The notes below the pieces were generated by a model. It worked only from the letters and a program-made list of their open reading frames with translations. It was not told the origin of the DNA and did no database searches. From Rhodothermaceae bacterium Tc-Br11_B2g6_7 (GTDB lineage: Bacteria; Bacteroidota; Rhodothermia; Rhodothermales; Salinibacteraceae): a stretch of DNA of 64,000 nucleotides. A program made the translations under genes and the position numbers. Positions 4,457 through 60,079 of the stretch are shown in pieces (within the stretch, counting starts at the first letter, position 1; each line of letters starts with the position of its first letter). The stretch covers positions 1 to 64,000 of the forward strand of contig LKNB01000008.1 of assembly GCA_001564055.1 (NCBI GenBank). The letters run 5' to 3'.

Positions 4457-5560
4457 CTACACGCCGCGGGTGGGCTCCACATCCGGGTCGCCAAGCACAT
4501 CAGCTCGGTAGAAGCGGGCCAACACCAGCCCCACCGCTGCCAGGGGCGTCGCGAGGATGAACCCGAGAATTCCGACGACCGCCCCAAGCAACACCTGAAT
4601 AAAGATGGTCAGGGCTGGCGGGAGATAGACGGTTTGATGCTGAATGATGGGCATCAACACGTATCCCTCCAAAAGCTGTACGATGGTATAGGCCAGCATT
4701 ACATAAATCAGCGGCCACACGCCCTGCGTTAACGCAATGAGTGCGACAGGCACCGCGCCCAGTAAAGGCCCAAGGTATGGGATAAAGCCCAGCAGCCCAA
4801 CGATAAGCCCCAGCACCAGCGCGAGTGGGATATCAAAGAGCCAGAGGATGGCCATCACCGAGGCGCCAATCGTGACCATCGCCAGAAACTGCCCTATCAG
4901 AAACCAGCGCAGCGTATAGCCGATGGCGGCCAGCATCTCCCGCATGCGCGTCCGGTAGGCCCTCGGGGTGAGCCCTACCATGCCCTCAGTGTACAACTTC
5001 GGATTCGACGCGCCAAACAGCCCAATAAACAGCACGACGAGTGCGTACGAAAGCCACTCCACCGTTGTGGAGAAGGCCGCGCCCATACGCTGCGGAAGCG
5101 TTTCCACGACACGCTGGAACGGCGCAAGGGCCTGCTCGGCCCAGTCATAGGTCTGCAAACGCTCCTCAACAAACGTCAGGGCCGCCGGCAACTCCTGAAT
5201 GATCGCGTCGGCCTGTTCAGCGATCTGTGGAGCCAGCACCCACGCACTCCCCCCGATCACCACCAGGGTCAGCAGCAACACGATCGCAAAGGCACCGCGA
5301 TCGGGGAGCCCGGTAAGCGCCTCCACGCCATTGACGGCGGCCCGCAGCAGTACCGCCAGCAGCACGCCCCCGAAGGCTGACAGCACAATGTTGATACCCA
5401 CCAAAAAGAGGAGCAGCCCAAGCCCGGCAAGTACCGAAAGGGCGACCCCAGCGAGCAGGCGGCGTGGGTAGGCGGGCTTGCCCGACGCCCCATAGTGGGC
5501 CGTCCGGGCGGTGGACGCCGTGGCGGTGCCGGAATCGTCCTGACGGGTATCGTCTGGCAT
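4457..5560 (-). CDS. AI-2E family transporter (PerM/YdiK type permease)
   Basis: 367 residues with the typical arrangement of the AI-2E exporter superfamily: two N-terminal membrane helices, a periplasmic helical loop (EQADAIIQELPAALTFVEE), then a dense C-terminal bundle ending in LATPLAAVGLVLARFY. The frame stays open to 5689, but the upstream part is Arg/Ser-rich and unlike the family, so the ATG at 5560 (MPDDTRQDDSG) is preferred. Members have been linked to AI-2 export or Na+/H+ antiport; a substrate cannot be assigned here, though in a halophile an ion role is attractive (inference). Confidence 0.85.
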   Translation of the reverse strand: MPDDTRQDDSGTATASTARTAHYGASGKPAYPRRLLAGVALSVLAGLGLLLFLVGINIVLSAFGGVLLAVLLRAAVNGVEALTGLPDRGAFAIVLLLTLVVIGGSAWVLAPQIAEQADAIIQELPAALTFVEERLQTYDWAEQALAPFQRVVETLPQRMGAAFSTTVEWLSYALVVLFIGLFGASNPKLYTEGMVGLTPRAYRTRMREMLAAIGYTLRWFLIGQFLAMVTIGASVMAILWLFDIPLALVLGLIVGLLGFIPYLGPLLGAVPVALIALTQGVWPLIYVMLAYTIVQLLEGYVLMPIIQHQTVYLPPALTIFIQVLLGAVVGILGFILATPLAAVGLVLARFYRADVLGDPDVEPTRGV

Positions 5561-5726
5561 GCACAGGGAGAGAGGTGACGATCGTGAGGAACGTGCCAAA
5601 CGATCACGGCTAATCAGGGGTTCGCGGCACCGGGTGGAGATGATCTCAACAGGATGCTCCTGACGGGGTGCTCCTGACAGTGTACCCATCGCAGCATGCG
5701 ATACTACTGGGGCCTCCGCTGTAGCG

Positions 5727-6278
5727 TTAGATCCACTGCGTAGCTTTCAGCACGGCAAGGATTATCAGGAGCGCGCCGGCGGCAGCCGTCAGGTAATGGC
5801 GGTACGTCGCCCCGGCGGTGTGCCCCACCCGCAAACCGACCCAGGTGAACGTCACCGAGAATGCGCAGATGGTCGTGGCGACCACCAGGGCATTGACCGT
5901 CCCCAGCCCGAGGCTAAACCCGATCAGCAGGTTGTCCAGGCTCAGCCCCGCCGCCAGCACCGTAAGGCCGAGCCACGTGGTCACTCGGGAGGCCAGCGTA
6001 TCCTCTGGCGCTGCTTGTTGCCAGCTGGTAGCCAGCGTCCATAGCCCCAAGAGCGCCAGCAGCACCACCCCCACCCAGGCCACCTCCTGCTCGATCCAGC
6101 GCGCCGTGGTGCGACCCAGGAGGATGCCGATCAGAGGCACGCAGAACTCGAAGGCGCCAAATACCAGGACGATGCGCCATCGGCGTGCGTGCTGCCCCAG
6201 GGCCCCGAGCGCCAACGCGACCGCCATGTTATTCGCGGCAACAATGACGCCGAGGACAAGGAGCTCAACAAGGGGCAT
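5727..6278 (-). CDS. mntP: MntP-like manganese efflux pump (DUF204)
   Basis: 183 residues, close to the 188 of the Escherichia coli MntP, with six hydrophobic segments and an internal two-fold repeat. The repeat motifs appear as VIVAANNMAVALALG near residue 10 and AGLSLDNLLIGFSLG near residue 112. The second keeps the conserved acidic residue (SLDN), while the first has Asn-Asn where MntP has Asp, so metal specificity could differ. Family members export Mn2+ from the cytoplasm. No mnt riboswitch was recognised upstream. Confidence 0.75.
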   Translation of the reverse strand: MPLVELLVLGVIVAANNMAVALALGALGQHARRWRIVLVFGAFEFCVPLIGILLGRTTARWIEQEVAWVGVVLLALLGLWTLATSWQQAAPEDTLASRVTTWLGLTVLAAGLSLDNLLIGFSLGLGTVNALVVATTICAFSVTFTWVGLRVGHTAGATYRHYLTAAAGALLIILAVLKATQWI

Positions 6279-6320
6279 GAGCCATGTGGACGGACTGAAG
6301 GGAACGAGCGCACCGCGGGT

Positions 6321-6602
6321 TTACGCTGCTACCGTCACGCCCTTCCAAAACGCCACATGGTCCTTGATTTCTGCCGCCGCGTCTTTCGGGTTCGGGTAGG
6401 TCCAGGCCGCGTTCTTGTTGGTCTTGCCATCCACCGTCACGTCAAAGTAGTGCGCTTCCCCTTTCCACGGGCAGCGCGTGCGGTGGTCGCTTGGCTCAAA
6501 ATGGGCCTCGTGGATGGCGTCGGGTGGGAAGTAGTGGTTGCCTTCCACCACCACGGTGGCGTCGCTTTCCGCGATGACGGTGTCATTCCAGTGGGCTTTC
6601 AT
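6321..6602 (-). CDS. DUF427 domain protein
   Basis: A 93-residue single-domain protein. The family pattern is clear: AHWNDTVIAESDATVVVEGN at the start, the central TRCPWKGEAHYFDVTVDG and the C-terminal AWTYPNPKDAAAEIKDHVAF. DUF427 proteins form a small beta-rich fold and are common, often next to redox or cell-wall genes, without an established activity. It lies 42 bases upstream of the MntP-like gene in the same direction and may be co-transcribed. Confidence 0.9.
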   Translation of the reverse strand: MKAHWNDTVIAESDATVVVEGNHYFPPDAIHEAHFEPSDHRTRCPWKGEAHYFDVTVDGKTNKNAAWTYPNPKDAAAEIKDHVAFWKGVTVAA

Positions 6603-6698
6603 CGGGAGCAGGAGATAAATGGTGAGGAAAAAGAGTGGGGATCGAACGCCCGGACTATCCCATGGTCTCCACTCCCTCCTGTACGTTACGGGTTCCTG

Positions 6699-7715
6699 TT
6701 ACCGGTTGAAGGGCCATCGCTCCCGCACCCACCGGGTGAGATGCGCTTCGTAGCGCTGCCAGAGCACTCCCGCCCCGATAATGCCCAACCCGATGAGCGT
6801 GAGCACCAGCGGAAACCAGAAACTGTCTGCAAACACATCATGGGCAAGATGGAACAGGTAGCCCGTCACGCCGAGTGCACCCACAATGGTATAGAGGCGC
6901 CGCTGCAGCGCTACGCCCACAAACAACAGCACCGTATTGCTGGCCGCGTAACCGGCCGGCGGAAAGCCTGTTGCGAACACCACAGCGGTGAGGCTACCCC
7001 ATGCGGAGAGGATTCCCACGAGGTGGACCCAGAAGGCAAACGGATGGCCGTGCCGTTGCGCATCTATATACACCGCGCTGCCGATCAGCAGTAGACCGAT
7101 AGCTGCGGCGGCGGTGCGGTACGCCGCATCAGAAGGAACCCCCAGCACCACCACATACGGCACCAGGTTCATCGCAATGTACCACACAATCACCGCTACA
7201 GGCATGGCGATAAAGGGAAGGCGGTACCGGGTCAGCAGGAAGATGGCCGTGGCCAAGCCAGCCGCCTGCAGCGCGAGCCCACGCCCGTCAAAGCCCACCA
7301 GCCAGTGTTGGTACTCCGCGCCCTCGGGCCAGAAGCCAAGTTCGAGTTGGGCGCCGTACACGGCCAGCGGGGCCAGCACCACCACCAGTACAGCGGTGAG
7401 GCCAGCGGCCACCTTCAACTCCGCCCGCACAAGCCGCTCGGTGAGCAAGAGCCCCAGCGCACCATAGGCCAAGGCGATCAGCACCAGCGCCCGCCCGCCA
7501 AACTGCTCCCACCCGAGCGTCATCAGCACGCTCATGGCACCAACGGCAATCAGCCCCCCGAGGTAATACAGTAGATGAGACGCCTGAAAGGAGGAGGCCC
7601 CGGACGATGCATCTGTCTTCTCTTCCGCTGCCAGCGCCGCAAGCGCGTCGGCCTGGGCTTCGGTGATGATGCCTTGGTCCACAGCTTTGGGCAGCCACGA
7701 GGGACGGTCGGGCAC
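6699..7715 (-). CDS. DUF2157-type polytopic membrane protein
   Basis: 338 residues. A short soluble N-terminus (residues 1-45, with QGIITEAQADALAAL, the usual N-terminal helix pair of the DUF2157 group) precedes about ten hydrophobic segments and a basic C-terminus (RYEAHLTRWVRERWPFNR). The role is unknown. It is the first gene of a minus-strand run of DUF2157, DUF427, MntP-like and AI-2E genes separated by gaps of 42-166 bases. Confidence 0.7.
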   Translation of the reverse strand: MPDRPSWLPKAVDQGIITEAQADALAALAAEEKTDASSGASSFQASHLLYYLGGLIAVGAMSVLMTLGWEQFGGRALVLIALAYGALGLLLTERLVRAELKVAAGLTAVLVVVLAPLAVYGAQLELGFWPEGAEYQHWLVGFDGRGLALQAAGLATAIFLLTRYRLPFIAMPVAVIVWYIAMNLVPYVVVLGVPSDAAYRTAAAAIGLLLIGSAVYIDAQRHGHPFAFWVHLVGILSAWGSLTAVVFATGFPPAGYAASNTVLLFVGVALQRRLYTIVGALGVTGYLFHLAHDVFADSFWFPLVLTLIGLGIIGAGVLWQRYEAHLTRWVRERWPFNR

Positions 7716-7747
7716 GGGCGGCGCAATTTAGGCAAAAAGACAGGAGG

Positions 7748-7909
7748 ATGAGGCGCCTACGTGCGACCGATCGTGCAGTTGCTCCCCGCACGCTCCATGG
7801 CCCCCGGGAGCCTAAGCTGCTGATGGACGTGACGCCGCGCATCGTCGCCTGGTTTAATCACCACCTCGGGCGCGCATCGGCAGCCGACGCCGCGCCGGAC
7901 GATGAGTAA
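7748..7909 (+). CDS. Possible small protein, 53 residues
   Basis: An ATG at 7748 follows a strong AGGAGG directly upstream, unusual in this window where ribosome binding sites are nearly absent, and opens a 53-codon frame ending in TAA at 7907-7909. The product is basic at the start, has a helix-like centre (KLLMDVTPRIVAWFNHHLG) and an acidic tail (ADAAPDDE), a composition that fits the acidic proteome. It matches nothing I recognise. It sits between a divergent membrane gene and the next small gene. It may still be chance. Confidence 0.35.
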   Translation: MRRLRATDRAVAPRTLHGPREPKLLMDVTPRIVAWFNHHLGRASAADAAPDDE

Positions 7910-8030
7910 AGCAGGGATTGCCTGTGGAGAGCACGGCAGGCACTGGTTCGTTTTCCCGGGGAACGACTTCCTGCGATGCGCGCAAAAGCATGCGCTCTGT
8001 GTTTCCATCCATCCACGACGATGCGCTCTT

Positions 8031-8285
8031 ATGGACGCTACACACCATTACCACCGCTGGCGCTGGCTGGCGCCAGCCGGATTGCTGACCATAGGTGCCG
8101 GGCTTAGCGTGGTCGGGCAGGCCACCCTCCTCAAAACCCGGGATGCCCCCACGCGGCGCTGGGTGCTGTGGGGCACCGCCGGGCTTGCCCTCACCAACGC
8201 CGGCCTCTCCATGCTGGGCGACAGCATCAAGCACCGCACGCTTTATGAGTGGCAGCGGCAGTCCGACCATGTAAAGAACGTCTGA
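8031..8285 (+). CDS. Small two-helix membrane protein, unknown function
   Basis: 84 residues from the ATG at 8031 (MDATHHYHRWRW). Two hydrophobic stretches are visible (APAGLLTIGAGLSVVGQA and VLWGTAGLALTNAGLSMLGD) separated by a short charged loop (TRDAPTRR), with a charged C-terminus. The frame continues 43 codons upstream, but that part has Cys/His-rich, non-protein-like composition. No family recognised. The TonB receptor gene begins 90 bases downstream on the same strand. Confidence 0.55.
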   Translation: MDATHHYHRWRWLAPAGLLTIGAGLSVVGQATLLKTRDAPTRRWVLWGTAGLALTNAGLSMLGDSIKHRTLYEWQRQSDHVKNV

Positions 8286-8375
8286 TGATGTACCGTTCGG
8301 CGAATGTGGCTGTATCCCCGTCGGGCCTGATGGCGTAGACAGCAATTCATCACTTCTATTTTGTTCGGTTCCCGC

Positions 8376-10652
8376 ATGTCGTCTGTTTGCTATTGGAGGT
8401 GGATCGCTGCCGTATGGCTGGCCCTGTTGTGGATCGGCGGGCCTGATGCGCATGCTCAGGAGCGCGCGGCGCTTAACGGCTACGTGGAAGACGCCACCTC
8501 GGGCGAAACGCTGATCGGGGCCAACGTGCTGGTGGAGGAAGCCGAGCGCGGCGCGTCCACCAACACCTCGGGCTACTATACCCTGCCGCGGCTATCGCCC
8601 GGGACGTACACGGTGCGGTTCTCCTACGTAGGCTACCGGACGCAGCGCGTGGAGGTGACCCTGGAAGCTGGCGAAGAGCGGCGGCTGGATGTGGCACTGG
8701 TACCGGACGATGTGACGATTGACGAAGTGGTGGTAACGGCCGAGGAGCAGGAGGCCGAAGCTGCGCGCGACCTGGGCATCTCGCAGCTCCCGGCACGACT
8801 GGTGCGCGAACTGCCGTCGGTGCTGGAACCGGACGTCTTCCGCTCGCTGCAGCTGCTCCCCGGCATCGCCCAGGCCTCCGACTTCTCCAGTGGCCTCTAC
8901 ATCCGCGGCGGTAGCCCCGACCAGACGCTCATTTTGCTGGACCGCACCACCGTCTATAACCCCAGCCACTTCTTCGGCTTTTTCTCCACCTTCAACCCGG
9001 ACGCCATCAAAGACGTGCGCGTCTACAAAGGGGCGTTTCCGGCGAGCTACGGCGGGCGCCTGGGGTCGGTGGTCGACATTTACAACAAAGACGGCAACCG
9101 CCGCTCGACCCGCGGTTCGGCGAGCGTGGGGCTGCTGGCCTCGCGTGCCTTCCTCGAAGGGCCGCTGCCCGACGAACAGGGCTCGTACATGGTGGCGGTG
9201 CGCCGCTCCACGCTGGAGCCCCTCCTGGCGGTGCTTCAGGATGCTGACATTGATGGCATTCCCGACAGCTTCTACTTCTTCGACATCAACGCGAAGCTGA
9301 ACTGGGATGCCAACCAGCGCAACCGTTTCTCGCTCTCGGTTTACACCGGACAGGACAACCTCCTGCTACCTTTCCTGGACGATGCCGTCTTCGACATCGT
9401 CTACGGCAACCAGACGCTCAGCCTCAACTGGACGCACCTCTTTTCCAACCGCCTCTTCTCCAACTTCACCTTCACCGGCTCCCGGTACTTTAGCGAGCCG
9501 GTCGCCATCCTTTCTGGGACGGAGATCGAACAAGAAAACACGGTGGTGGACGTATCGGCCAAGGGCGACCTGGAGTTTGACGCCAGCGATGCGCATCGCC
9601 TCGAAGCCGGCTTCTGGACAGGCCTGCTCTCGTTTTCGATCGCGAACGCGTTTCAGGGCGACGAGACCTTTGAGGAGTCCACCAATACGGCCTACGTGGA
9701 AGGCTACGTGCAGGACCGCTGGCGCCCCACCGACCGCCTGGAGCTGAACCTGGGGCTGCGTGCCAACTATTTTGCCGAGGGCGACTACTTTCGCCTGGGG
9801 CCGCGCGCCTCCGCCGAGTACCGCCTCACGGACGCCATTCGCCTGCAGGCCGGCGCGGGACGCTACCACCAGTTCCTGACGCTGGAGACGAACGAGGCCA
9901 TCTCGGCGTTTGACCAGTGGCTCACCACCGGCGCGGGCGTCCCACCGTCCAGCGGCAACCAGTTTGTGCTGGGCGCTAAAACCCAGCTCTCCTCCAGCTT
10001 GCGGTTCGATGTAGAAGGCTACTACCGCTCGATGGATGACCTTTTCCAGCTCAACCCCCTACTCCCCGACCGGGCTGGACTCGACTATGCGGACGCCTTT
10101 GTGTTTGGTGATGGGTATGCGCTGGGCGCCGAGTTCTTCCTGGAGCGCACGGAAGGCGCCGTCACCGGGTTTGCCGCCTACACCCTCGGGCAGACGCGCC
10201 GTCGCTTCGACGAGATCAACGACGGCCGCCGGTTTGCCCCGCGCTACGACCGCACCCACGACTTGAACGTGGTCGCCAACTACGACCTCACGGCCAACTG
10301 GCGGCTTACAGGCGTCTTTGCCTACGCCACCGGGCAGGCCTACACACCGGCCGTGGGGCAGTACCGCCTGGGCAACGACCCCGTGCGTGGCGCTGGCACC
10401 AACGTGGTCCAGTCGCGCTTCAACGCCGCCCGCCTGCCGGCCTACCACCGCCTCGATGTGGGCCTCACGCGGCGCGGGCGCTTCTTCGGCTTTGCCGACT
10501 ATGAGCTCCAGTTTCAGGTTATCAACGCCTATGGGCGGAGCAACACCTGGTTCTTCTTCTTCGATTTTGAGGATGACGGCTCCGTCACCCAGAACGACAT
10601 CCCGCAGATCCCGATCCCGCTGCCCAACATCGCCGTTACCCTCCAGTTTTAG
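8376..10652 (+). CDS. TonB-dependent receptor with N-terminal carboxypeptidase-regulatory-like domain
   Basis: 758 residues. A signal peptide (cleavage near DAHAQ) is followed by a carboxypeptidase-regulatory-like beta-sandwich (about 30-115, with GYYTLPRLSPGTYTVRFSYV), a plug domain (about 130-245; FSSGLYIRGGSPDQTLILLD) and a 22-strand barrel ending in Phe. There is no long SusC-type N-terminus. The outer membrane protein imports a large or scarce ligand using TonB energy. It is followed after 53 bases by a DUF4249 lipoprotein, its usual partner in Bacteroidota, so the pair is probably one transport unit. Ligand unknown. The ATG at 8376 (MSSVCYWRW) is chosen over 8361. Confidence 0.9.
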   Translation: MSSVCYWRWIAAVWLALLWIGGPDAHAQERAALNGYVEDATSGETLIGANVLVEEAERGASTNTSGYYTLPRLSPGTYTVRFSYVGYRTQRVEVTLEAGEERRLDVALVPDDVTIDEVVVTAEEQEAEAARDLGISQLPARLVRELPSVLEPDVFRSLQLLPGIAQASDFSSGLYIRGGSPDQTLILLDRTTVYNPSHFFGFFSTFNPDAIKDVRVYKGAFPASYGGRLGSVVDIYNKDGNRRSTRGSASVGLLASRAFLEGPLPDEQGSYMVAVRRSTLEPLLAVLQDADIDGIPDSFYFFDINAKLNWDANQRNRFSLSVYTGQDNLLLPFLDDAVFDIVYGNQTLSLNWTHLFSNRLFSNFTFTGSRYFSEPVAILSGTEIEQENTVVDVSAKGDLEFDASDAHRLEAGFWTGLLSFSIANAFQGDETFEESTNTAYVEGYVQDRWRPTDRLELNLGLRANYFAEGDYFRLGPRASAEYRLTDAIRLQAGAGRYHQFLTLETNEAISAFDQWLTTGAGVPPSSGNQFVLGAKTQLSSSLRFDVEGYYRSMDDLFQLNPLLPDRAGLDYADAFVFGDGYALGAEFFLERTEGAVTGFAAYTLGQTRRRFDEINDGRRFAPRYDRTHDLNVVANYDLTANWRLTGVFAYATGQAYTPAVGQYRLGNDPVRGAGTNVVQSRFNAARLPAYHRLDVGLTRRGRFFGFADYELQFQVINAYGRSNTWFFFFDFEDDGSVTQNDIPQIPIPLPNIAVTLQF

Positions 10653-10705
10653 ACCGCGTGGCAGGTCACGCCTGGGCTCTGCTCCCTATTGAATCATCCG
10701 TTGTT

Positions 10706-11641
10706 ATGCTTCGATCTCTTTGCCATCGATTTCTCGTGTTGCTGCTGTTGTCCGCCGCGCTGCTCTGGGGCGGCTGTGAACTGCTGGAGGCGGAGCCGTT
10801 CGAATCTGAGATTGTGGTGGAGTCCTATCAGATCGAAGGGCAGCCCCTCGGGGACGTCCGCCTGAGCCGCTCTGTGGACATCGACACCCGTTTCGTGTTT
10901 GAGGAGCAAGCCGTGCGCGGGGCCGACGTGCGGGTGGCGCGCCTCGACGCCGACGACGCGGTGGTTGAGGAAGTGACGTACCTGGAGCATAGCCCCGGCG
11001 TGTACCGTCCGGCACCGGAGACCCCGCCCACCGTGGAGCCGCTCACCACCTATCGCCTGCGCGTGTCCGTCCCGGAAACCGGCGAGACGCTCTCCGCCCG
11101 CACGCTGGTGCCCGGCGCCTTTGAGCTCCGCAGCGTAAGCGCCGACACCATCACCTTTCGAGACGCACAGGCTCAGCTCACCCTCACCCAGAGCGCCTAC
11201 CCGGGCCGGCAGGCGGTATACCTCTTTAGCACCGAAGCGCTGGATGTGGAGGAGGCCAACCTGACGCCCTTCTACCGCAATATTTTTGAGAACAATGGCG
11301 ACCTGGACGACCTCCGCATTGCCAACTCCGGCCTGCTGAACGAGGCCAACTTTGACGTCGCAGACGATGGCCTCATTTCCATCGACCTGCCCTGGCTGGG
11401 GATTGCCTTCTACGGCCTCAACCGCATCTTCGTGAGTGCGGTAGACGACAACTACTTTGACTTCATCCGCTCTCAGGATGCACAGCAGGGCGGCCCCGGA
11501 TTCTCCCCCGGTGAAATCCCTAACGTGATTGACCGCGTAGAGGGCGGGACGGGCCTCTTCGCCAGCCTATCGCAGATTGAAGCCGACCTTGAGATTCGCT
11601 GCAATGACGCGGTAGATCCGCAGTGTCCGCCTACGCCATAG
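10706..11641 (+). CDS. DUF4249 family outer-membrane lipoprotein
   Basis: 311 residues. A lipoprotein signal with lipobox WGGC gives a mature N-terminal Cys near residue 22. The following FESEIVVESYQIEGQPLGDV and LTTYRLRVSVPETGETLSA pattern is that of DUF4249 proteins, which occur next to TonB-dependent receptors of the type encoded just upstream and are thought to work with them at the surface. The frame is open upstream to 10658, within the intergenic space, but the ATG at 10706 gives a perfect signal peptide. The otsA frame begins inside the last codons of this gene, but its likely start is after the stop. Confidence 0.85.
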   Translation: MLRSLCHRFLVLLLLSAALLWGGCELLEAEPFESEIVVESYQIEGQPLGDVRLSRSVDIDTRFVFEEQAVRGADVRVARLDADDAVVEEVTYLEHSPGVYRPAPETPPTVEPLTTYRLRVSVPETGETLSARTLVPGAFELRSVSADTITFRDAQAQLTLTQSAYPGRQAVYLFSTEALDVEEANLTPFYRNIFENNGDLDDLRIANSGLLNEANFDVADDGLISIDLPWLGIAFYGLNRIFVSAVDDNYFDFIRSQDAQQGGPGFSPGEIPNVIDRVEGGTGLFASLSQIEADLEIRCNDAVDPQCPPTP

Positions 11642-11673
11642 CGCTGCGGGGATCTGCTCTACACATCCCGCAT

Positions 11674-13110
11674 ATGTATCCCTGCCGGCTACCTGCTGTA
11701 CCGGCACCCCTTCGCTCTCCACCTACTGCCCCCTTGCCTGTGCGCCTACTCGTTGTAGCCAACCGCGCCCCCATTCGCAAGACTGACACCGGCTGGTCGC
11801 CCTCCATTGGCGGCCTGGCGACCGCTCTGCTCCCCGTCCTGGAAGAACAGGGCGGCGTATGGGTGTCGATGGGCGAAGAGCCCGACCTCCCCGAGCGCCA
11901 ACCCTACCCGGCGGAGGACCCCAACTTCCACGTCCGTCGTGTACCGCTCACTCAGGAAACACTCGACAACTATTATTATGGGATGAGCAACCGTGTGCTC
12001 TGGCCGCTCTCCCATTACATGATTGAGCACATGGAGCTCAACGATGATTTCTACGCGGACTACCGGGACGTCAACCGGCGGTTTGCCGAGGCGGTTGTCG
12101 AGGAGGCGCAGGAGGGCGACCAGGTATGGGTGCAGGACTATCACCTGATGCTGGCGCCGCACTTTATACGCGAACGCTGGCCCGAGGCTACCATTGGCCA
12201 CTTCTGGCACATCCCCTGGCCGGCCATGGAGGTGTTTCGCATCCTACCCCAAGCACGCGACCTGCTGCGGGGGATGCTGGGCTGCGACCTCATCGGATTC
12301 CACGTGGACGAATACGTCAACAACTTCATTGAGAGCGCTCGGGTGCTCCTTGGCGCGCATGTGGAGCGTAACATCATTCACTGGCAGGGCCGCGAGGTGC
12401 GCATCGAAACCCATCCGCTGGGTATCGACACTGGGCGCTTTCAACAGATGACCGAGGAGAAGGAAACCCAGGAGGCAGTGCAAAACCTGCGCGACGAAAC
12501 GGGCACCGAACACCTGGTCCTTGGCATCGACCGGATGGACTACACCAAAGGCATCCTCAGACGCCTCCTCGCTTTTGAGAAGTTTCTGGAGGATTACCCC
12601 GCCTACCATGAACGCGTGAGCTTCTACCAAATCGCCACACCCAGCCGCACCAAGCTGGAAACCTACCAGCAGATGAAGCGCGAGGTGGATGAAGCTGTGG
12701 GCCGAATCAATGGGCAGTTTGGCACGGACACCTGGGTGCCCGTGTACTACCGCTATCGCAAATATACACAGCGCAAGCTGTGTGCGTTTTATAATGCGGC
12801 CAGCGTGTGCTTCATTACACCGCTACGAGACGGGATGAACCTGGTAGCACAGGAATATGTCACCAGTAACGACGGGGGCGTACTGGTGCTTTCCGAGCTG
12901 ACCGGCGCGTCCTACGTGCTTGACCAAGCAGTAAAGGTGAACCCATACGATCATAAGGCGCTGGCAGAAGCCATCCGAGAGGCGCTTGAGATGCCTGAGG
13001 ATGAGCGCAAAGAACGCCTGCGCGAGCTGAAGGAAGCAACCGCTCGGCTGGACGTCCATCGGTGGGCTGACCGTTTCCTTAAAGCGATGGATCGCGTAGC
13101 CGTCGCTTAA
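11674..13110 (+). CDS. otsA: Trehalose-6-phosphate synthase (GT20)
   Basis: About 478 residues. Makes trehalose 6-phosphate from UDP-glucose and glucose 6-phosphate. GT20 features in order: GGLATALLPVLEE (N-terminal nucleotide loop), VWVQDYHLMLAPHFIRER, GHFWHIPWPAMEVFRILP, GCDLIGFHVDEYVNNF, the catalytic-core LGIDRMDYTKGILRRLLAF, and TPLRDGMNLVAQEYV with the UDP-binding acidic pair. The canonical N-terminus VRLLVVANRAP begins at a GTG at 11740, so the true start may be 11740 rather than the ATG at 11674. OtsB follows. Trehalose is a compatible solute, in keeping with a salt-stressed life (inference). Confidence 0.95.
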   Translation: MYPCRLPAVPAPLRSPPTAPLPVRLLVVANRAPIRKTDTGWSPSIGGLATALLPVLEEQGGVWVSMGEEPDLPERQPYPAEDPNFHVRRVPLTQETLDNYYYGMSNRVLWPLSHYMIEHMELNDDFYADYRDVNRRFAEAVVEEAQEGDQVWVQDYHLMLAPHFIRERWPEATIGHFWHIPWPAMEVFRILPQARDLLRGMLGCDLIGFHVDEYVNNFIESARVLLGAHVERNIIHWQGREVRIETHPLGIDTGRFQQMTEEKETQEAVQNLRDETGTEHLVLGIDRMDYTKGILRRLLAFEKFLEDYPAYHERVSFYQIATPSRTKLETYQQMKREVDEAVGRINGQFGTDTWVPVYYRYRKYTQRKLCAFYNAASVCFITPLRDGMNLVAQEYVTSNDGGVLVLSELTGASYVLDQAVKVNPYDHKALAEAIREALEMPEDERKERLRELKEATARLDVHRWADRFLKAMDRVAVA

Positions 13111-47142: not shown

Positions 47143-48144
47143 CTATGACTGCTTCCCTTCCTGCGTGGCAACGTCCTCGGCACTGGTCGGCCGCTGGCGC
47201 AGCGCGCGCTGCAGGAACGTGACTACAAACCGGTCTGCCCAGTGCCAGGTATGAGCCGCCGCCGGATGGAAGATGGGATCGTCGTCGCCAAAGCCCAGCG
47301 GTAGGTTATGCGCCTGCAACTGCTCCACCACAAACCGGGCGCGGTCCAGGTTGCCCTTGCGACCATCGCTGGAAGCGCAGGCTACCCAGTAGGTGGTGGT
47401 GCGGAGCTTCGCCAGGGCATCCGGCGAAGCCGCCATCAGCATGTCGGTAGGGTTCCACTGCTGCATAGCGGCGGGCTTTCGGGGACTTCCGAGGGCGGCG
47501 TCGAAAATCTCAGCGCCGCCCCAGATACGGTCGGTGTAGCGGCCCCGGCGGTCGGTGCGGGGGTCCTGGTGCCCGGGCCACATAAAGGTGCCGTCGTACA
47601 TGGCGGCGTGCGTAAACAGCCCGGGGCGTTTGAGCGCCAGCAGATGCACCGTGTACCCGCCCAGCGAGAAGCCTGCCATGAGGCGTGGGCCCTGCTCCGT
47701 TTGCGGATAATCGTCAGCTACCGCCGGCAACAGCTCGTCTGTCAGGTACGTCCAGAACCGCCCCCGGCCCAGCCCGTCCAGCGTGGTCGACCACGACCCC
47801 GCCATATCAATCCCCAGCGAGGGCACATGATTGTTCGCGCTGTTGAGGCCCGGCATCACCACCAGCATCGGGGGCAGCAGGCCTTCTCGAATCCGCACGT
47901 CGATGTCCTGAATGGCCGTGGAGCGATTGCGTGAGCCATCCTCTTCCATGTTAACCCACTCGCGCTCATGCCCGCGAAACAGATACACCACGGGCGCTGC
48001 CGTAGCCTGCGATAGGCCGGGCGCTTCGTACACATAGTAGGGCTTCTCGATACCCAGCGCGCGCGACCGGAAGTGTTGGGCCCGGAGCCGGCCGTATAGC
48101 CGGTCGCGGTGCCAGGCAAGGATGCGGGAGGTGGAATCAGACAT
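47143..48144 (-). CDS. Alpha/beta-hydrolase esterase, last gene of the ATP-grasp cluster
   Basis: 333 residues, esterase-D/Fes-like fold. The nucleophile elbow is GFSLGG with Ser160; a C-terminal His lies in AAHTWHWADRFVVTF. The strand-turn VYLFRGHEREWVNMEE forms the oxyanion region. A basic N-terminal arm (YGRLRAQHFRSRALG) precedes the fold. Its job in the unit could be to release or acylate a product, or to hydrolyse a peptide or ester intermediate; this is inference. It begins 70 bases after the amidotransferase gene. Confidence 0.8.
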   Translation of the reverse strand: MSDSTSRILAWHRDRLYGRLRAQHFRSRALGIEKPYYVYEAPGLSQATAAPVVYLFRGHEREWVNMEEDGSRNRSTAIQDIDVRIREGLLPPMLVVMPGLNSANNHVPSLGIDMAGSWSTTLDGLGRGRFWTYLTDELLPAVADDYPQTEQGPRLMAGFSLGGYTVHLLALKRPGLFTHAAMYDGTFMWPGHQDPRTDRRGRYTDRIWGGAEIFDAALGSPRKPAAMQQWNPTDMLMAASPDALAKLRTTTYWVACASSDGRKGNLDRARFVVEQLQAHNLPLGFGDDDPIFHPAAAHTWHWADRFVVTFLQRALRQRPTSAEDVATQEGKQS

Positions 48145-48214
48145 GCAGGGATACGCTCAGTGAAGTACCACCGATGCACGACCGCGCACCGGCAAGCCAG
48201 CAGCGGCAGCGGGG

Positions 48215-49066
48215 TCAGGCCGCAGGTGCCAGGGTATGGTGGGTGGCCCGCAAGGCCCGCCGCAGGAACGTGGGGATAACCGTCTGGTGCGTCGGTGTCA
48301 GGTACTGCTTCTCTTTCAGGCGCGCAATCAGGCGCTGGTAGCGGGCCTCGCAGAACGAGCCAATGACGGCTTTGCGCTGTGCTGGCCGCCGAAAGTGCGC
48401 CAGCATGCCCTCAGGATCGGCCTCGGGGTGAAACTGCACGCCCACCAGTTCCGGCGAGAGGCGGATGCCCATCAGCGCGCGCTCGTACGGGTACTCCTCG
48501 TAGGGCTGCTCACGGGCCAGCAACGAGGCGCCGAGCGCTGCGACGCGGTCGTGGTCCGGCTGCACCACCTGCCAGCGCCGAAAGTCAGCCGCCCAAAAGG
48601 GGTCCGGCAGCGCGTCGAACAGCGGCTCGTCGTGGCCGCCCGGCAGGCGGTGCACCTCGAAGATACCGAACGACTGCGCTGGCCGCTTGGTGACCTGCCC
48701 CACCTCAAAGTACCGGCACAGCAGTTGGAACGAGTGGCAGATAAACAGCGCGTGCTTCTTGGGGTACCTGGCGCGGTTGTGCTGCCAGAGCGCCTCCAGC
48801 CAGTCAAAGTACGCTGCTTCCCAGGGCTGATCCAGTCCGTCCCACGGGCTGCCCGGCCCACCGGTGGAAATGTACGCGTCGTAGCTCAGGTCAGGCACCG
48901 CAGCCTCGCCCCGTACCTCAAAGACGTCATAGGTGATGTCAGCCTTAAGGGGCGGTCCAGACTGCCCCTTCAGAAAGGCCTCGATGCAGCGCATGCCCTG
49001 GTTGGGCTGGCCGTCGTAAAGATCAAGCACGGCCACCCGAAGGGCCGGCGCGTCAGGATGAGGCAT
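48215..49066 (-). CDS. Class-I glutamine amidotransferase-like protein
   Basis: 283 residues. Cys110 sits in the nucleophile elbow (HALFICHSFQLLCRYF) and the His-Glu pair in VGVQFHPEADPEGML, so the triad is complete. The start (RVAVLDLYDGQPNQGMRCIE) and AYISTGGPGSPWDGLDQP match amidotransferases of small-molecule ligase clusters. It would hydrolyse glutamine and hand ammonia to a ligase. The C-terminal 60 residues are an extension that could be a partner-binding helix. Its start overlaps the end of the circularly permuted ATP-grasp gene by 14 bases, implying coupled translation. Confidence 0.88.
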   Translation of the reverse strand: MPHPDAPALRVAVLDLYDGQPNQGMRCIEAFLKGQSGPPLKADITYDVFEVRGEAAVPDLSYDAYISTGGPGSPWDGLDQPWEAAYFDWLEALWQHNRARYPKKHALFICHSFQLLCRYFEVGQVTKRPAQSFGIFEVHRLPGGHDEPLFDALPDPFWAADFRRWQVVQPDHDRVAALGASLLAREQPYEEYPYERALMGIRLSPELVGVQFHPEADPEGMLAHFRRPAQRKAVIGSFCEARYQRLIARLKEKQYLTPTHQTVIPTFLRRALRATHHTLAPAA

Positions 49067-50429
49067 AGTAGGTGTTGCGTAAAATGAACATCGGCAGGGT
49101 GCCCCCGCCGGCGGTTACGTTGGCCAGGTCAGAGCCCGAGATTCGCGTCAGGCAGCCTCCCATGAGCGGGCCGTTCAGGTACGGATCCAGGTCAATGATT
49201 GACGGCACCATCTCCCAGCCGCTGGATGTTTTCATGAGAAACGGCTCGCGGTGGATATCCACCGTTTCCTGAATCACGTGCCCGGCCTTGAGGCCTTCTT
49301 CGATGGCGTCGTCCCATGCGGCCGGCGTGGCGGCAAAGCCCAGCGTGACTCCCGAGCCACCATACGCATCGTTCGGTTTGATGACAAAGTGCCGCTGGTT
49401 CGACCGCACGAAGTCCACGAGGTCAATCGTAAGCCCCCGGAACTCCGTCGTCTGTGGGCGCAAGCGGCGCGTCCAGGGGATGTGCCGCTGGATGGCCAGG
49501 CGCTGCGGCGCGTCGAGCACTTGCGTGTATTTTTCGTCCGTGAGGAAGGAAAAAATAGCCTTCTTGTGCACAAGCTTCGCCCGGAAGGTGTTCAGGTAAC
49601 ACGTTTTCTGTGCCCGGTAGCCTTCCTCGTACGAGCGGCACTCCTCCCGGATCTCATAAAACTCGTTCATCAGGAGCCGCCGGTACAGGATATCAATTTT
49701 CTTGCCATTGGCGACGATCCAGCCGTCGTGGCATTCCAATGCGCGCGGATCCACCACTTCACAGCCATACCCCAGCGACTCCAGGTAGGCTTTAATCAGG
49801 TCGAACTCGTGCGTGGTGGGCACATCCGCCAGCCGGTCCACAATCGCAAAGGTCGGGTGGAGCTTCTGCCCCCCAAACTCATCATGGTAGGTACGAATGA
49901 AGGCCTGGATGGCATGCTCCAGCGGCGACACAAAGCGGACGGGGTACCGCTCCGTAAACGTCTGAAAGAGCGACAGCTCCTGGTACATCTGCGCCAGCTC
50001 GTCCGCATACGCCATGCCGGCCGGGCTCTCGCCGTTGAACTCCACGAACTTGAACGACCGTTCCGTGAGGAAGGCATCCAGCCGGGCGTTGGCGGCGAAG
50101 TGCATAACGGGGGTGGGAATGGCGGCCAGCTCAATCTCCCACGGCTCCATCCCCAGCTCTTCGCGGAGGAGCGCCTCGTCGTTGAAAAAGGTAGATGCAA
50201 TACGCAGGATGGCCTGGCGGATGAGGTACACCGTGTCCTGCACATCGGCGTACATGGCCTCCGTCACAAACGTGGGCCGCAGGCTGTTGGCCATGGGGCG
50301 CCCACCGAAGAGGGCGCGGCGCTCGTGCTGTAGCGTCTGCAACTGTGCAAACTGATCCTCCGCCGCCGTGAGGTCGCGTTCAATCAGCGCATGATAATGG
50401 TCGATGGCGGGCTGCAGGTGCTGCCGCAT
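49053..50429 (-). CDS. Circularly permuted ATP-grasp ligase-like protein
   Basis: 458 residues. Near the C-terminus is an ATP-grasp substrate/nucleotide region in permuted order (RHFVIKPNDAYGGSGVTLGF, then AGHVIQETVDIHREPFL), and the N-terminal half carries FVEFNGESPAGMAYADEL, the acidic metal-binding motif usually at the end of ordinary ATP-grasps. This matches circularly permuted ATP-grasp proteins of peptide/metabolite ligase clusters. Predicted to activate a carboxylate as an acyl-phosphate and join it to an amine. Third of five genes; 39 bases after the preceding one and overlapping the next. Confidence 0.82.
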   Translation of the reverse strand: MRQHLQPAIDHYHALIERDLTAAEDQFAQLQTLQHERRALFGGRPMANSLRPTFVTEAMYADVQDTVYLIRQAILRIASTFFNDEALLREELGMEPWEIELAAIPTPVMHFAANARLDAFLTERSFKFVEFNGESPAGMAYADELAQMYQELSLFQTFTERYPVRFVSPLEHAIQAFIRTYHDEFGGQKLHPTFAIVDRLADVPTTHEFDLIKAYLESLGYGCEVVDPRALECHDGWIVANGKKIDILYRRLLMNEFYEIREECRSYEEGYRAQKTCYLNTFRAKLVHKKAIFSFLTDEKYTQVLDAPQRLAIQRHIPWTRRLRPQTTEFRGLTIDLVDFVRSNQRHFVIKPNDAYGGSGVTLGFAATPAAWDDAIEEGLKAGHVIQETVDIHREPFLMKTSSGWEMVPSIIDLDPYLNGPLMGGCLTRISGSDLANVTAGGGTLPMFILRNTYYASS

Positions 50430-50468
50430 AGCGTGTGGTAGGTCTGGTGGGAAGGCAGCAACATATGC

Positions 50469-51425
50469 TCAGCCCCGGGGGGCGGGATGCAAGGCTCCCT
50501 GCGCATTGAAGGGCGGCGGCGTGCGATCTTCAAGGGCTTTCTCCACCGCGAATTCAGCCATCGCCTGGACGATCCACTCGAAGTTCTCGTGCCCGACTGA
50601 GTGATAATCCGCGTCCGGCGCCGGATTCATAAAGTCGATGGCATAGGGCACCCCATCGCGCACCGCAAACTCAACGGTGTTCATGTCATACCCCAGCACT
50701 CGGCACAGGGCCAGCACGTCCCGCTCCAGCTTCTGCTTAAAGTCAGGGTCGATGGGCTCTGGCGATACTGCTGAATACCGCTCGTGCATGGGCACGGATG
50801 GATTATAACGCATGATGTGGGCCTTTTTTTGCCCGATGCCATAACAGCGGTAATAATCCTCAAACTCGATGCCCTCTTGAAGCATCATACAGTCGATGCC
50901 CGACTGGTTGTAGGCTGCGAAGAACTCACCGGGCGTGGTGACCTTCGAGACATCGCGCCACCCGCCCCCATCGAACGGCTTCAGGAACGCCGGAAAGCCG
51001 ATATAGGCGAAGACGTCATCCCAGTCCACGGGATACTTCATATTGCGAAACGTCTTATCCGACGTGTTCGGGGGATGCTGCTTGTGCGGCAGAATCACGC
51101 TGCGGGGTACAGCCACGTCCACCGATTCGGCAATGATGTTGTCGATGAACTTGTCGTCGGCACTCCACCAAAACGGGTTGTTGATGATGTACGTGCCCTT
51201 GATGGCGGCCCACTTCAGGTACGAGCGGTAAAAGGGCACCTCGTGCGAGATGCGGTCGATGATGACGTCATAGGCCGGATCCGCGTCCATCCGCACAGCG
51301 CCAACCTCAACGAACGCGGCTTCTACTCCTTGCTCACCATACGTGTCATTGATGTAGGGGATGAGGGCATCTGGAAACGTGGTTTCGACGCCTCGAAGAA
51401 TCCCGATGCGGCGTGGTGTGCTCAT
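50469..51425 (-). CDS. ATP-grasp (RimK-like) carboxylate-amine ligase-like protein
   Basis: 318 residues. Begins with RRIGILRGVETTFPDALIPY and a pre-ATP-grasp domain, then the nucleotide loop and lysine (IGFPAFLKPFDGGGWRDVSK) and the metal-ligand segment near the C-terminus (GVPYAIDFMNPAPDADYHSV). It is a conventional order of domains, unlike the permuted neighbour. Probably ligates an amino acid or peptide to another amine. Start chosen at 51425 (MSTPRRIG), since the frame to 51491 runs into the upstream gene. 35 bases separate it from the first esterase gene. Confidence 0.82.
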   Translation of the reverse strand: MSTPRRIGILRGVETTFPDALIPYINDTYGEQGVEAAFVEVGAVRMDADPAYDVIIDRISHEVPFYRSYLKWAAIKGTYIINNPFWWSADDKFIDNIIAESVDVAVPRSVILPHKQHPPNTSDKTFRNMKYPVDWDDVFAYIGFPAFLKPFDGGGWRDVSKVTTPGEFFAAYNQSGIDCMMLQEGIEFEDYYRCYGIGQKKAHIMRYNPSVPMHERYSAVSPEPIDPDFKQKLERDVLALCRVLGYDMNTVEFAVRDGVPYAIDFMNPAPDADYHSVGHENFEWIVQAMAEFAVEKALEDRTPPPFNAQGALHPAPRG

Positions 51426-51460
51426 GGTGTCGGTGAGTGTTGATGAAGTAGGGGGCAAAA

Positions 51461-52168
51461 CTACAGGTGACGGCAGATCTGGTCCTGCCACCAGGGCCAG
51501 TCGTGGCCGAAGCCATCGACGCGTTCGTAGTGGTGGCCGACGCCTTTGCTATGAAGCACGTGGCTCATATGGTCGTTTGCGCCACGGCAGGGGTCGTGCT
51601 CACCGGCGGTCAGGATCAAGTGCGTGTGGCGGAGGGCTTCCAGGGTGCCGTGGTCGTGCATGTTGGGCATATAGTCCACCGGGTTGCTGAAGTACACGTT
51701 CTCATCGTAGAACCCGTCCATAAACGAGCGGATGTCGTAGGCACCACTCATCGAAATCAGCTTGCCAAAGGACCACGGCTGCTTGCACACCAGATTGAGG
51801 GCATGATAGGCGCCAAAGCTCGCCCCGGTGGCGATGATGAAGTCTGAAGTCGCGCGGTCATAGATGAACGGCAGCACTTCAGCCAGCACATACTGCTCGT
51901 ACTGCTGATGGCGCTTGATGCGCACGTACGGCGGCACGCTACGGTTGTAAAAACTCTCCCCGTCGACGGCGTCGATACAGAACAGCTGGTTCTGGCCGTG
52001 CGTCAGCTGGTGGTGCAACGCCCCTACCATCCCGAAGTCGCGCCACTCATAAAAGCGGCCCTGGCTCGACGGAAACGCCAGGATGGGCGTGCCGGCGTGG
52101 CCGTACACGAGGATCTCCATGGGACGACCGAGCCGGGGGCTCCACCACTTGACGTAGTCGGTGTGCAT
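51461..52168 (-). CDS. Alpha/beta-hydrolase esterase, first gene of the ATP-grasp cluster
   Basis: 235 residues, esterase family. Nucleophile elbow IATGASFGAYHA with Ser117; a final His in RVDGFGHDWPWWQDQ. The early PILAFPSSQGRFYEWRDFG is typical of the esterase-D-like proteins that stand beside ATP-grasp ligases. It is the promoter-proximal gene of the five. It is distinct in sequence from the cluster's second esterase, so the unit has two hydrolases with probably different substrates. Confidence 0.82.
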   Translation of the reverse strand: MHTDYVKWWSPRLGRPMEILVYGHAGTPILAFPSSQGRFYEWRDFGMVGALHHQLTHGQNQLFCIDAVDGESFYNRSVPPYVRIKRHQQYEQYVLAEVLPFIYDRATSDFIIATGASFGAYHALNLVCKQPWSFGKLISMSGAYDIRSFMDGFYDENVYFSNPVDYMPNMHDHGTLEALRHTHLILTAGEHDPCRGANDHMSHVLHSKGVGHHYERVDGFGHDWPWWQDQICRHL

Positions 52169-54833: not shown

Positions 54834-54952
54834 ACTCAGGTAGCAGATGATAACATTGGCAATCTGTTACCCAATCGCCGAGCGGATGAAATGATGCACC
54901 CGCGACGTATCATGGCCTTTTTCTCCTCACCCGGAATGCGTTTACCCATTAC

Positions 54953-55010
54953 TCGTCCCCTCCGCCTCGGTGGGGACGCACATTCGGGGACCGTCTCGGT
55001 CCCACGTCGC
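54953..55010 (+). repeat. Palindrome-rich repeat, partial copy A
   Basis: The right half of the repeat seen in full at 55123-55248 and 56022-56144: a CGTCCCC/GGGGACG hairpin and the GGACCG-TCT-CGGTCC hairpin. The loop of the first hairpin differs by one base (CCGCCTCGG for CCGTCTCGG). It lies 69 bases after the first copy of the non-coding stretch before the M20 gene. Confidence 0.85.
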
Positions 55011-55122
55011 GGCCGAAGCTTACCTGTCGGCAAGAATTCCTGCGCGTTCGTACGCAAGAAGCCGTAATGAGATGATTCGAATGGCGCGGATGAAATTGAC
55101 CGGCATTGGCACCGCGCACACG

Positions 55123-55248
55123 GAGCCGAGACGGCTCCAAACGGGCGTCGCGCCCGGGACGGACGCGACGAGCAGCATTTTTTCTTTTCCTCGTCCCCTC
55201 CGTCTCGGTGGGGACGCACATTCGGGGACCGTCTCGGTCCCACGTCGC
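55123..55248 (+). repeat. REP/BIME-like palindromic repeat, full copy B
   Basis: 126 bases holding four hairpins in order: GAGCCG-AGA-CGGCTC, CGTCGCG/CGCGACG with an 11-base loop, a T-rich spacer, CGTCCCC/GGGGACG with an 11-base loop, and GGACCG-TCT-CGGTCC. The nonamer CCGAGACGG or its complement appears three times. It lies 213 bases upstream of the transposase gene. Confidence 0.9.
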
Positions 55249-55460
55249 CGCATCCCTCGAACAAGCGACCAACCCAATCTAAAGTGTGATCGCCGATGGT
55301 TGCCCCCTTCCAGTTATCTCGGTCCTGAGGAAGACCGCCAATACAACCAATTCACCCACCGTCATTGAGGCAAAGTAGTCGACCAACTTTAGCCATGGGA
55401 TATACCCCGCATCCATCATGTGCTGCAGTTTTATGTTTCTTGCGACCAAATCCTCCGGTT

Positions 55461-55994
55461 ATGGGAGACACACGCTATCGTATTTTGGAGCAGCAGGAAC
55501 CGTATTTTCTAACCTGTACCATATCCAGATGGCTACCCATTTTTGCGTACAGCGATGTCGCGCGAATTGTGCTCGACTCGTTGGTCTTTCTGCAAGATGC
55601 TGACCGGCTCACGTTATATGGCTACGTGCTCATGGAAAACCACCTTCACCTCATAGCATCAGCTGAGGATCTCTCGCATGAACTGATGACGTTCAAATCG
55701 TACACAAGCCACGCAGTTATCAACCTACTAAAGGATACTCGACGGACCACACTCCTCCGCATGCTCCCGAGGCCTGCGCGCCCAGATCGAGGCGAACGTG
55801 TCTACCAACTCTGGCAACGGGGAAGTCATCCGAAGCAGATTCTGCAGAAAGATATGTTCTTGCAAAAACTGGAGTACATTCACCTGAATCCTGTAAAGCG
55901 CGGGTACATTGATGAGCCGGTGCACTGGCGCTACTCCAGCGCTCGAAATTATTCCGGACAGCGAGGGCTTATCCCGGTTACTGTAGCGCTGTAG
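55461..55994 (+). CDS. REP-associated tyrosine transposase (Y1/HUH family)
   Basis: 177 residues. The HUH motif is His61 and His63 in VLMENHLHLIASAED and the catalytic tyrosine is Tyr139 in FLQKLEYIHLNPVKRGYI. The start RYRILEQQEPYFLTCTISRW is typical of TnpA_REP/RAYT proteins. These enzymes cut single-stranded REP hairpins and are domesticated in many genomes. The flanking copies B and C of a palindrome-rich repeat match this. The ATG at 55461 (MGDTRYRI) is taken; the longer frame starts at 55365. Confidence 0.92.
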   Translation: MGDTRYRILEQQEPYFLTCTISRWLPIFAYSDVARIVLDSLVFLQDADRLTLYGYVLMENHLHLIASAEDLSHELMTFKSYTSHAVINLLKDTRRTTLLRMLPRPARPDRGERVYQLWQRGSHPKQILQKDMFLQKLEYIHLNPVKRGYIDEPVHWRYSSARNYSGQRGLIPVTVAL

Positions 55995-56021
55995 GTGAAT
56001 CGACGTGGTTTGGTACAGCAT

Positions 56022-56144
56022 GAGCCGAGACGGCTCCAATCATGCGTCGCGCCCGGGACGGACGCGACGAGTAGCACTTTTTCTTTTCCTCGTCCCCTCC
56101 GTCTCGGTGGGGACGCACACCCGGGACCGTCTCGGTCCCACGTC
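56022..56144 (+). repeat. REP/BIME-like palindromic repeat, full copy C
   Basis: 123 bases nearly identical to copy B and in the same orientation, starting 27 bases after the transposase stop. All four hairpins are kept; differences are a few bases and a short deletion near the last hairpin (ACACCCGGGACC for ACATTCGGGGACC). Together with copy B it brackets the transposase as a direct repeat. Confidence 0.9.
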
Positions 56145-59962: not shown

Positions 59963-60079
59963 CATTCATCCAGAAGGACTGAGGGAGCAGACCCTGTGAC
60001 GTCCTGGCAACCGCCGCCTGCTATGCAGATGCGGAAAGGTGCTACGTTCTGCCTTGCCTTGCGTGAGGGAAGATGAGTG
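59963..60079 (+). promoter_or_regulatory. SAM-I (S-box) riboswitch aptamer
   Basis: P1 is formed by CATTCATC at 59963-59970 and GATGAGTG at 60072-60079 (eight pairs, one G-U). P2 has AGGAC/GTCCT with the kink-turn bases TGA and TGTGAC around GAGGGAGCAGACCCT. The family core GGCAACC and AAGGTGCTA are present, and P3 is CCGC/GCGG. This is the Bacteroidota form of the S-box aptamer. With the terminator at 60112-60151 it forms a transcriptional OFF switch for the TonB receptor gene when SAM is high. Confidence 0.88.

Follow-up and report, generated by a model that had tools for sequence, protein, structure and literature searches.

A conserved five-gene unit with two ATP-grasp ligases in Rhodothermota, a candidate pathway to a small peptide-like or amide metabolite

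Introduction

Gene clusters that combine ATP-grasp ligases, an amidotransferase and hydrolases belong to a known type of predicted pathway, and the N-acetylglutaminylglutamine amide (NAGGN) pathway relies on a class-II AsnO-type amidotransferase together with an acetyltransferase/ATP-grasp fusion. The present study concerns a cluster of five genes (estB-AG-cpAG-gat-estA) located in a 64,000-nucleotide stretch of Rhodothermaceae bacterium Tc-Br11_B2g6_7 (contig LKNB01000008.1, positions 1 to 64,000, hereafter the window), which encodes two esterases, two ATP-grasp ligases and a protein with the fold of a glutamine amidotransferase (GATase). According to Pfam, NAGGN-type domains occur in none of the five proteins. 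The Anbu operon, composed of ATP-grasp, alpha-E, transglutaminase and Anbu genes (PMC6376114), is likewise a conserved operon with a glutathione-synthetase-like ATP-grasp; however, no Anbu, alpha-E or transglutaminase gene was found among the five genes or their neighbours. Similarly, the ATP-grasp pathways for E-64 (Cp1), dapdiamide, cystargolide and tabtoxin, which are independent of non-ribosomal peptide synthetases (NRPS), use stand-alone amide ligases in series (PMC12568646), whereas the window cluster is devoid of oxygenase, adenylating amide synthetase and warhead enzyme. No description of this gene combination was found in the open literature searched, whose coverage did not extend to a 2009 amidoligase review (Iyer et al., 10.1039/b917682a) in which a GCS2-type locus could be mentioned.

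Conservation of the cluster

cpAG and AG were used to search 60 related genomes as well as 396 genomes of the phylum, and 25 related loci were retrieved, 18 from the same order and seven from other families of the class; two of the 25 (L026 and L030) are cut at contig edges. In all 25 loci cpAG came immediately after AG, in the same orientation; gat came next in 23, estB was found upstream of AG in 20 and estA downstream of gat in 15. All five genes occurred in the same order in 12 of these loci, the window not being counted, and an all-against-all comparison of flanking open reading frames (ORFs) revealed no further gene common to many of the 25. Because gene order and strand are conserved, far beyond chance, while the flanks are not shared, the five genes form a real, co-selected unit. 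This is in line with the preliminary description of the window, which had proposed such a unit with the enzyme classes given below, now supported by conservation, motifs, predicted folds and invariant residues, and had suggested looking for the same neighbourhood in related genomes. The unit is composed as follows, from its first gene onward:

estB, 51461..52168, minus strand: 235 aa, esterase (PF00756 family), a serine alpha/beta hydrolase
AG, 50469..51425, minus strand: 318 aa from the ATG at 51425, conventional ATP-grasp ligase of the RimK/LysX/Ddl type
cpAG, 49053..50429, minus strand: 458 aa, circularly permuted ATP-grasp of the glutathione-synthetase/glutathionylspermidine-synthetase type
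gat, 48215..49066, minus strand: 283 aa, divergent enzyme with the class-I glutamine-amidotransferase fold
estA, 47143..48144, minus strand: 333 aa, PF00756 serine esterase related to feruloyl/enterochelin esterases

A longer AG ORF of 340 aa (50469-51491) starts from an early GTG, and the ATG at 51425 agrees with the starts in relatives. With this start, the gaps between the genes are 35, 39, -14 and 70 bases, exactly as previously reported for five minus-strand genes, and the five genes are probably co-transcribed. The catalytic residues announced for each protein, i.e., Ser117 (GASFG) in estB, FLKPFDGGG in AG, VIKPNDAYGGSG in cpAG, Cys110 in gat and Ser160 (GFSLGG) in estA, were all found. 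The nearest named genome, that of Longimonas halophila, carries the five genes in identical order, with identities of 85% (estB), 82% (AG), 85% (cpAG), 76% (gat) and 67% (estA). The dN/dS values of 0.07-0.23 obtained in this comparison indicate purifying selection.

Across the 60 relatives cpAG and AG co-occur, the exceptions being an AG fragment at a contig edge (G031) and a marginal AG match (G009). Within the window's own family the distribution of the cluster is patchy, and Longimonas halophila was the sole match in a single-protein scan of genome contigs. Searches of plasmids with AG and gat returned nothing, and none was found in the viral contigs scanned. The plasmid matches of cpAG were distant (22-28%; rhizobia, Streptomyces and others), and none of the three neighbourhoods examined resembled this cluster. 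Several neighbouring genes were rejected as members. The DUF4236, PD40, M20 and exonuclease genes that flank the cluster in the window were not found beside the clusters of relatives, and PbpC beside gat in L027 and L029, the ABC ATPases near L058 and L061 and DUF937 near L028 were judged to be local neighbours.

The two ATP-grasp ligases

The AlphaFold model of AG (mean predicted local distance difference test, pLDDT, 79) gave RimK, Ddl and ArgX/LysX as best Foldseek matches (E about 1e-13), and biotin carboxylase and Ddl chains were returned by profile search. AG shares with RimK, LysX/ArgX and D-Ala-D-Ala ligase the fold (template modelling score, TM, about 0.6-0.7), the ATP-grasp core and a metal site made of an acid and an Asn; however, it is only 13-18% identical to them and presents D-x-x-N where they have E-x-N. 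Indeed, the predicted metal ligands E274, D286 and N289 (numbering of the long ORF from 51491), placed through an alignment with pyruvate carboxylase, form E274 ... D286-x-x-N289, a variant of acid ... E-x-N that is kept in 53-54 of 56 homologues, and K171 is invariant or nearly so. AG of the window has no match in Pfam or NCBIfam, and Bacteroidota AGs score 24-32 bits against RimK/LysX cutoffs of 143-276. The Rhodothermota AGs constitute one clade of 24 rows (support 100/99), outside which falls the divergent copy of locus L039. Besides, at two loci (L104 and L108, the former alone being covered by the Pfam scan) an AG homologue adjoins genes for an alpha/beta hydrolase and for an AMP-binding enzyme resembling acyl-CoA synthetases, a further context for this family.

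The predicted structure of cpAG (pLDDT 85) resembled most closely 3n6x, the plant and human glutathione synthetases, fungal Cp1B, and GspS and YgiC of E. coli. It shares with glutathione synthetase, GspS, YgiC and Cp1B the fold, the R-x-D ... E-x-N motif and the profile match to 3n6x (E 2.5e-10), in which E130-x-N132 is aligned with E-D-N; on the other hand, identity to these enzymes is 10-21%, cpAG has no amidase domain and the gene neighbours differ. K351 is invariant or nearly so in the alignment, and the spacing of the motif R116-x-D118 ... E130-x-N132 resembles that of the GspS active site. The Pfam model CP_ATPgrasp_2 (PF14403) gave 22.4 bits on cpAG, under its cutoff of 32. Both ligases thus carry the metal-site residues on which the preliminary description had made its proposal depend (E274, D286 and N289 in AG, E130 and N132 in cpAG).

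The esterases and the GATase-fold enzyme

The two esterases, in which the Ser, Asp and His set of the family is conserved, were assigned to PF00756 with scores of 41.8 bits (estB) and 54.5 bits (estA) against a cutoff of 22. In estB, Ser117, Asp192 and His222 are conserved (alignment A5), Asp192 being missing in a few divergent rows. estA, which matches feruloyl esterases of the PDB (E 2e-19), is the most variable member of the cluster, with Ser160 and His298 invariant or nearly so. As proposed earlier, the esterases might trim or release the product.

In gat, the Cys-His-Glu triad of class-I GATases (Cys110, His213, Glu215) is invariant in the alignments, and PF00117 scored 22.0 bits, just under its cutoff of 22.8. 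The canonical nucleophile elbow of this class is G-x-C-x-G-x-Q. gat instead presents F-I-C-H-S-F-Q, which is near-identical in Rhodothermota and Bacteroidota and lacks both glycines of the class-I motif. The PDB profile matches of gat are weak and include GMP synthase, a protein that has not been characterised, and homoserine O-succinyltransferase, which has the same fold but is an acyltransferase. Neither this non-canonical elbow nor the Peptidase C26 gene that the L039 cluster carries instead of gat bears out the ammonia supply previously attributed to gat.

A wider module and the exchange of the second ligase

Clear homologues of AG were found in about 134 of the 396 genomes of the phylum, 113 of which carry a GCS2/YbdK ligase. 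GCS2 was present in 128 genomes (113 with AG) and gat in 86 (84 with AG). AG and GCS2 were adjacent, within 2.5 kb, in 70 of the 113 pairs, and AG and gat lay within 5 kb in 54 of the 84. The co-occurrence of AG, GCS2 and gat gave Fisher p values of 1e-29 to 1e-59, uncorrected for relatedness, the genomes sampled being related by descent. Among 32 Bacteroidota AG loci, GCS2, of the PRK13515/YbdK type, was found nearby in 14, a further family named C2 in 11, estB in eight, gat in six and another PF00756 esterase in six. The fullest of these loci read estB-AG-GCS2-gat-C2, the other PF00756 esterase, divergent, lying beside estB, and GCS2-gat-C2 can remain together where AG lies elsewhere (L151, L156). 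Their AG (50-57%), gat (about 40%) and estB (32-40%) look orthologous to those of the window, whereas GCS2 and C2 are found where the window has cpAG, and their second esterase is another member of PF00756.

C2 (about 396 aa; L115 4138-5334 and others, alignment A6) has no match in Pfam or NCBIfam. Its comparison with cpAG by hhalign gave an E value of 2.4e-4 with a probability of only 44%, and it weakly matches YgiC in the PDB. The motifs of the two families agree (VLKPLFSFAGSGV vs VIKPNDEYGGKGV), C2 having E-x-Q in place of E-x-N. Judging from these alignments, C2 is probably a distant, divergent circularly permuted ATP-grasp. It was present in six of six GCS2-type comparison genomes and in 0 of 26 cpAG genomes tested, that of the window included. 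GCS2 was not found in the window's genome, nor in most cpAG genomes of its order; since the source genome is 89% complete, absences from it are provisional. In all seven class-level relatives GCS2 is present and unlinked, and these copies, with glycosyltransferase or reductase neighbours and no clear link, were not retained as part of the system. The best reading of these data is that the five-gene cluster is the Rhodothermota form of a Bacteroidota-wide module whose usual ligase partner is GCS2, and the single Rhodothermota AG clade is consistent with one change of partner, in either direction.

One locus departs from both arrangements. In L039 (genome G047, 5047-12546), two oppositely oriented genes, for an M19 dipeptidase and an esterase, precede estB-AG-cpAG-GCS2-Peptidase C26. 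Among the loci seen, this divergent composite (cpAG 34%, AG 44%) alone has cpAG next to GCS2.

Proposed pathway and alternative explanations

We consider it fairly probable that a small metabolite, peptide-like or an amide, is assembled by this co-selected pathway from amino-acid-like units with neither a ribosome nor an NRPS, cpAG standing in for GCS2 and C2. AG and cpAG would each convert a carboxylate to an acyl phosphate with ATP and couple it to an amine, and in series they could form two successive amide bonds, leading to a small peptide or pseudopeptide. gat and the two esterases might process donor or protecting groups, their targets on the intermediates being glutamine, gamma-glutamyl, ester or thioester groups; catalysis, substrates, order of steps and product are here what we infer. 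Several observations argue for this proposal: the invariable adjacency of AG and cpAG, mostly followed by gat, between flanks that are not shared; the folds and motifs of both ligases; the linkage of AG, GCS2 and gat; the distribution of C2; and the Rhodothermota AG clade. Besides, Cp1B, whose fold is close to that of cpAG, forms the initial amide bond of E-64 in the absence of an NRPS (PMC12568646) and offers a precedent for such ligation. On the opposite side, estA and estB are each absent from some loci, AG is found without these partners in many Bacteroidota, and the loci compared show no conserved association of the unit with genes for a transporter, regulator, tailoring enzyme or precursor, so that a dedicated secondary metabolite is not obvious.

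The role of gat can be read in two other ways. It is possible, if somewhat doubtful, that the substrate of gat is a gamma-glutamyl intermediate, which gat would hydrolyse or use in acyl transfer, the scaffold of the pathway being a gamma-glutamyl or polyamine conjugate. The GCS2/YbdK family of the sister module, the structural proximity of cpAG to GspS and YgiC, and the replacement of gat by Peptidase C26 after GCS2 in L039, with the M19 dipeptidase nearby, point in this direction; however, L039 is a divergent composite whose C26 protein and gat fall in separate Pfam families, and the window genome has no detected GCS2. Alternatively, a true glutaminase could feed ammonia to one of the ATP-grasp enzymes, converting a carboxylate to a primary amide as in NAGGN-type compatible-solute peptide amides. 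Despite the invariant triad and the position of gat next to a ligase in 23 of the 25 Rhodothermota loci, the loss of both elbow glycines and the homoserine O-succinyltransferase among its weak best matches make this unlikely, and the gamma-glutamyl role is slightly favoured, given that the sister module contains GCS2 and that L039 has a C26 peptidase. That the targets of the ligases are proteins or other macromolecules, in a RimK-like tagging with no free metabolite, appears very unlikely: the closest folds of AG do include RimK and the LysW-dependent ArgX/LysX, and AG can stand alone, but the neighbourhood of the unit holds no conserved gene for a carrier or target protein, and two esterases suit small molecules better. 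Finally, the dispensable esterases and the solitary AGs could suggest that functionally unrelated genes are neighbours by chance, which is barely conceivable given the co-occurrence statistics and an order conserved in many genera without conserved flanks.

Returning to an NRPS-independent pathway, we tentatively suggest that the unit may represent an undescribed and widespread family of such peptide pathways in Bacteroidota and Rhodothermota, comprising a new AG family with a D-x-x-N metal site, a gat with a new nucleophile elbow, and a second ligase that has switched between two unrelated folds, those of GCS2 and of circularly permuted ATP-grasp.

Upstream hairpin and other features of the window

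One further element lies just upstream of the unit:

hairpin followed by T6, about 52226-52201, minus strand: about 33 nt 5' of the estB start

The hairpin had been described as a terminator-like element isolating the unit. Its existence, with T6, was confirmed; it is not conserved in the nearest relative and does not in itself indicate isolation. The region upstream of estB folds scarcely better than shuffles (z -0.87), and eight terminator-like sites were found in the region versus 4.2 +/- 2.1 expected. The hairpin may terminate transcription of the gene upstream or belong to a leader. Elsewhere in the window, direct repeats at 54949-55251 and 55123-56100, 65 and 79 nt long with 94-95% identity, flank a 209-aa ORF (55365-55994, plus strand), which resembles by eye a REP-associated (repetitive extragenic palindrome) tyrosine transposase and has no Pfam match. 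An S-adenosylmethionine (SAM) riboswitch of the S-box type was detected at 59963-60079 on the plus strand (74.8 bits).

Significance

The AG and gat families are poorly modelled in curated databases. With gat in 86 and AG in 134 of the 396 genomes sampled, roughly a fifth to a third of those from this phylum would harbour a small-molecule pathway that awaits characterisation. If true, the exchange of GCS2 for a circularly permuted ATP-grasp would constitute a natural experiment on the chemistry demanded of the second ligase.

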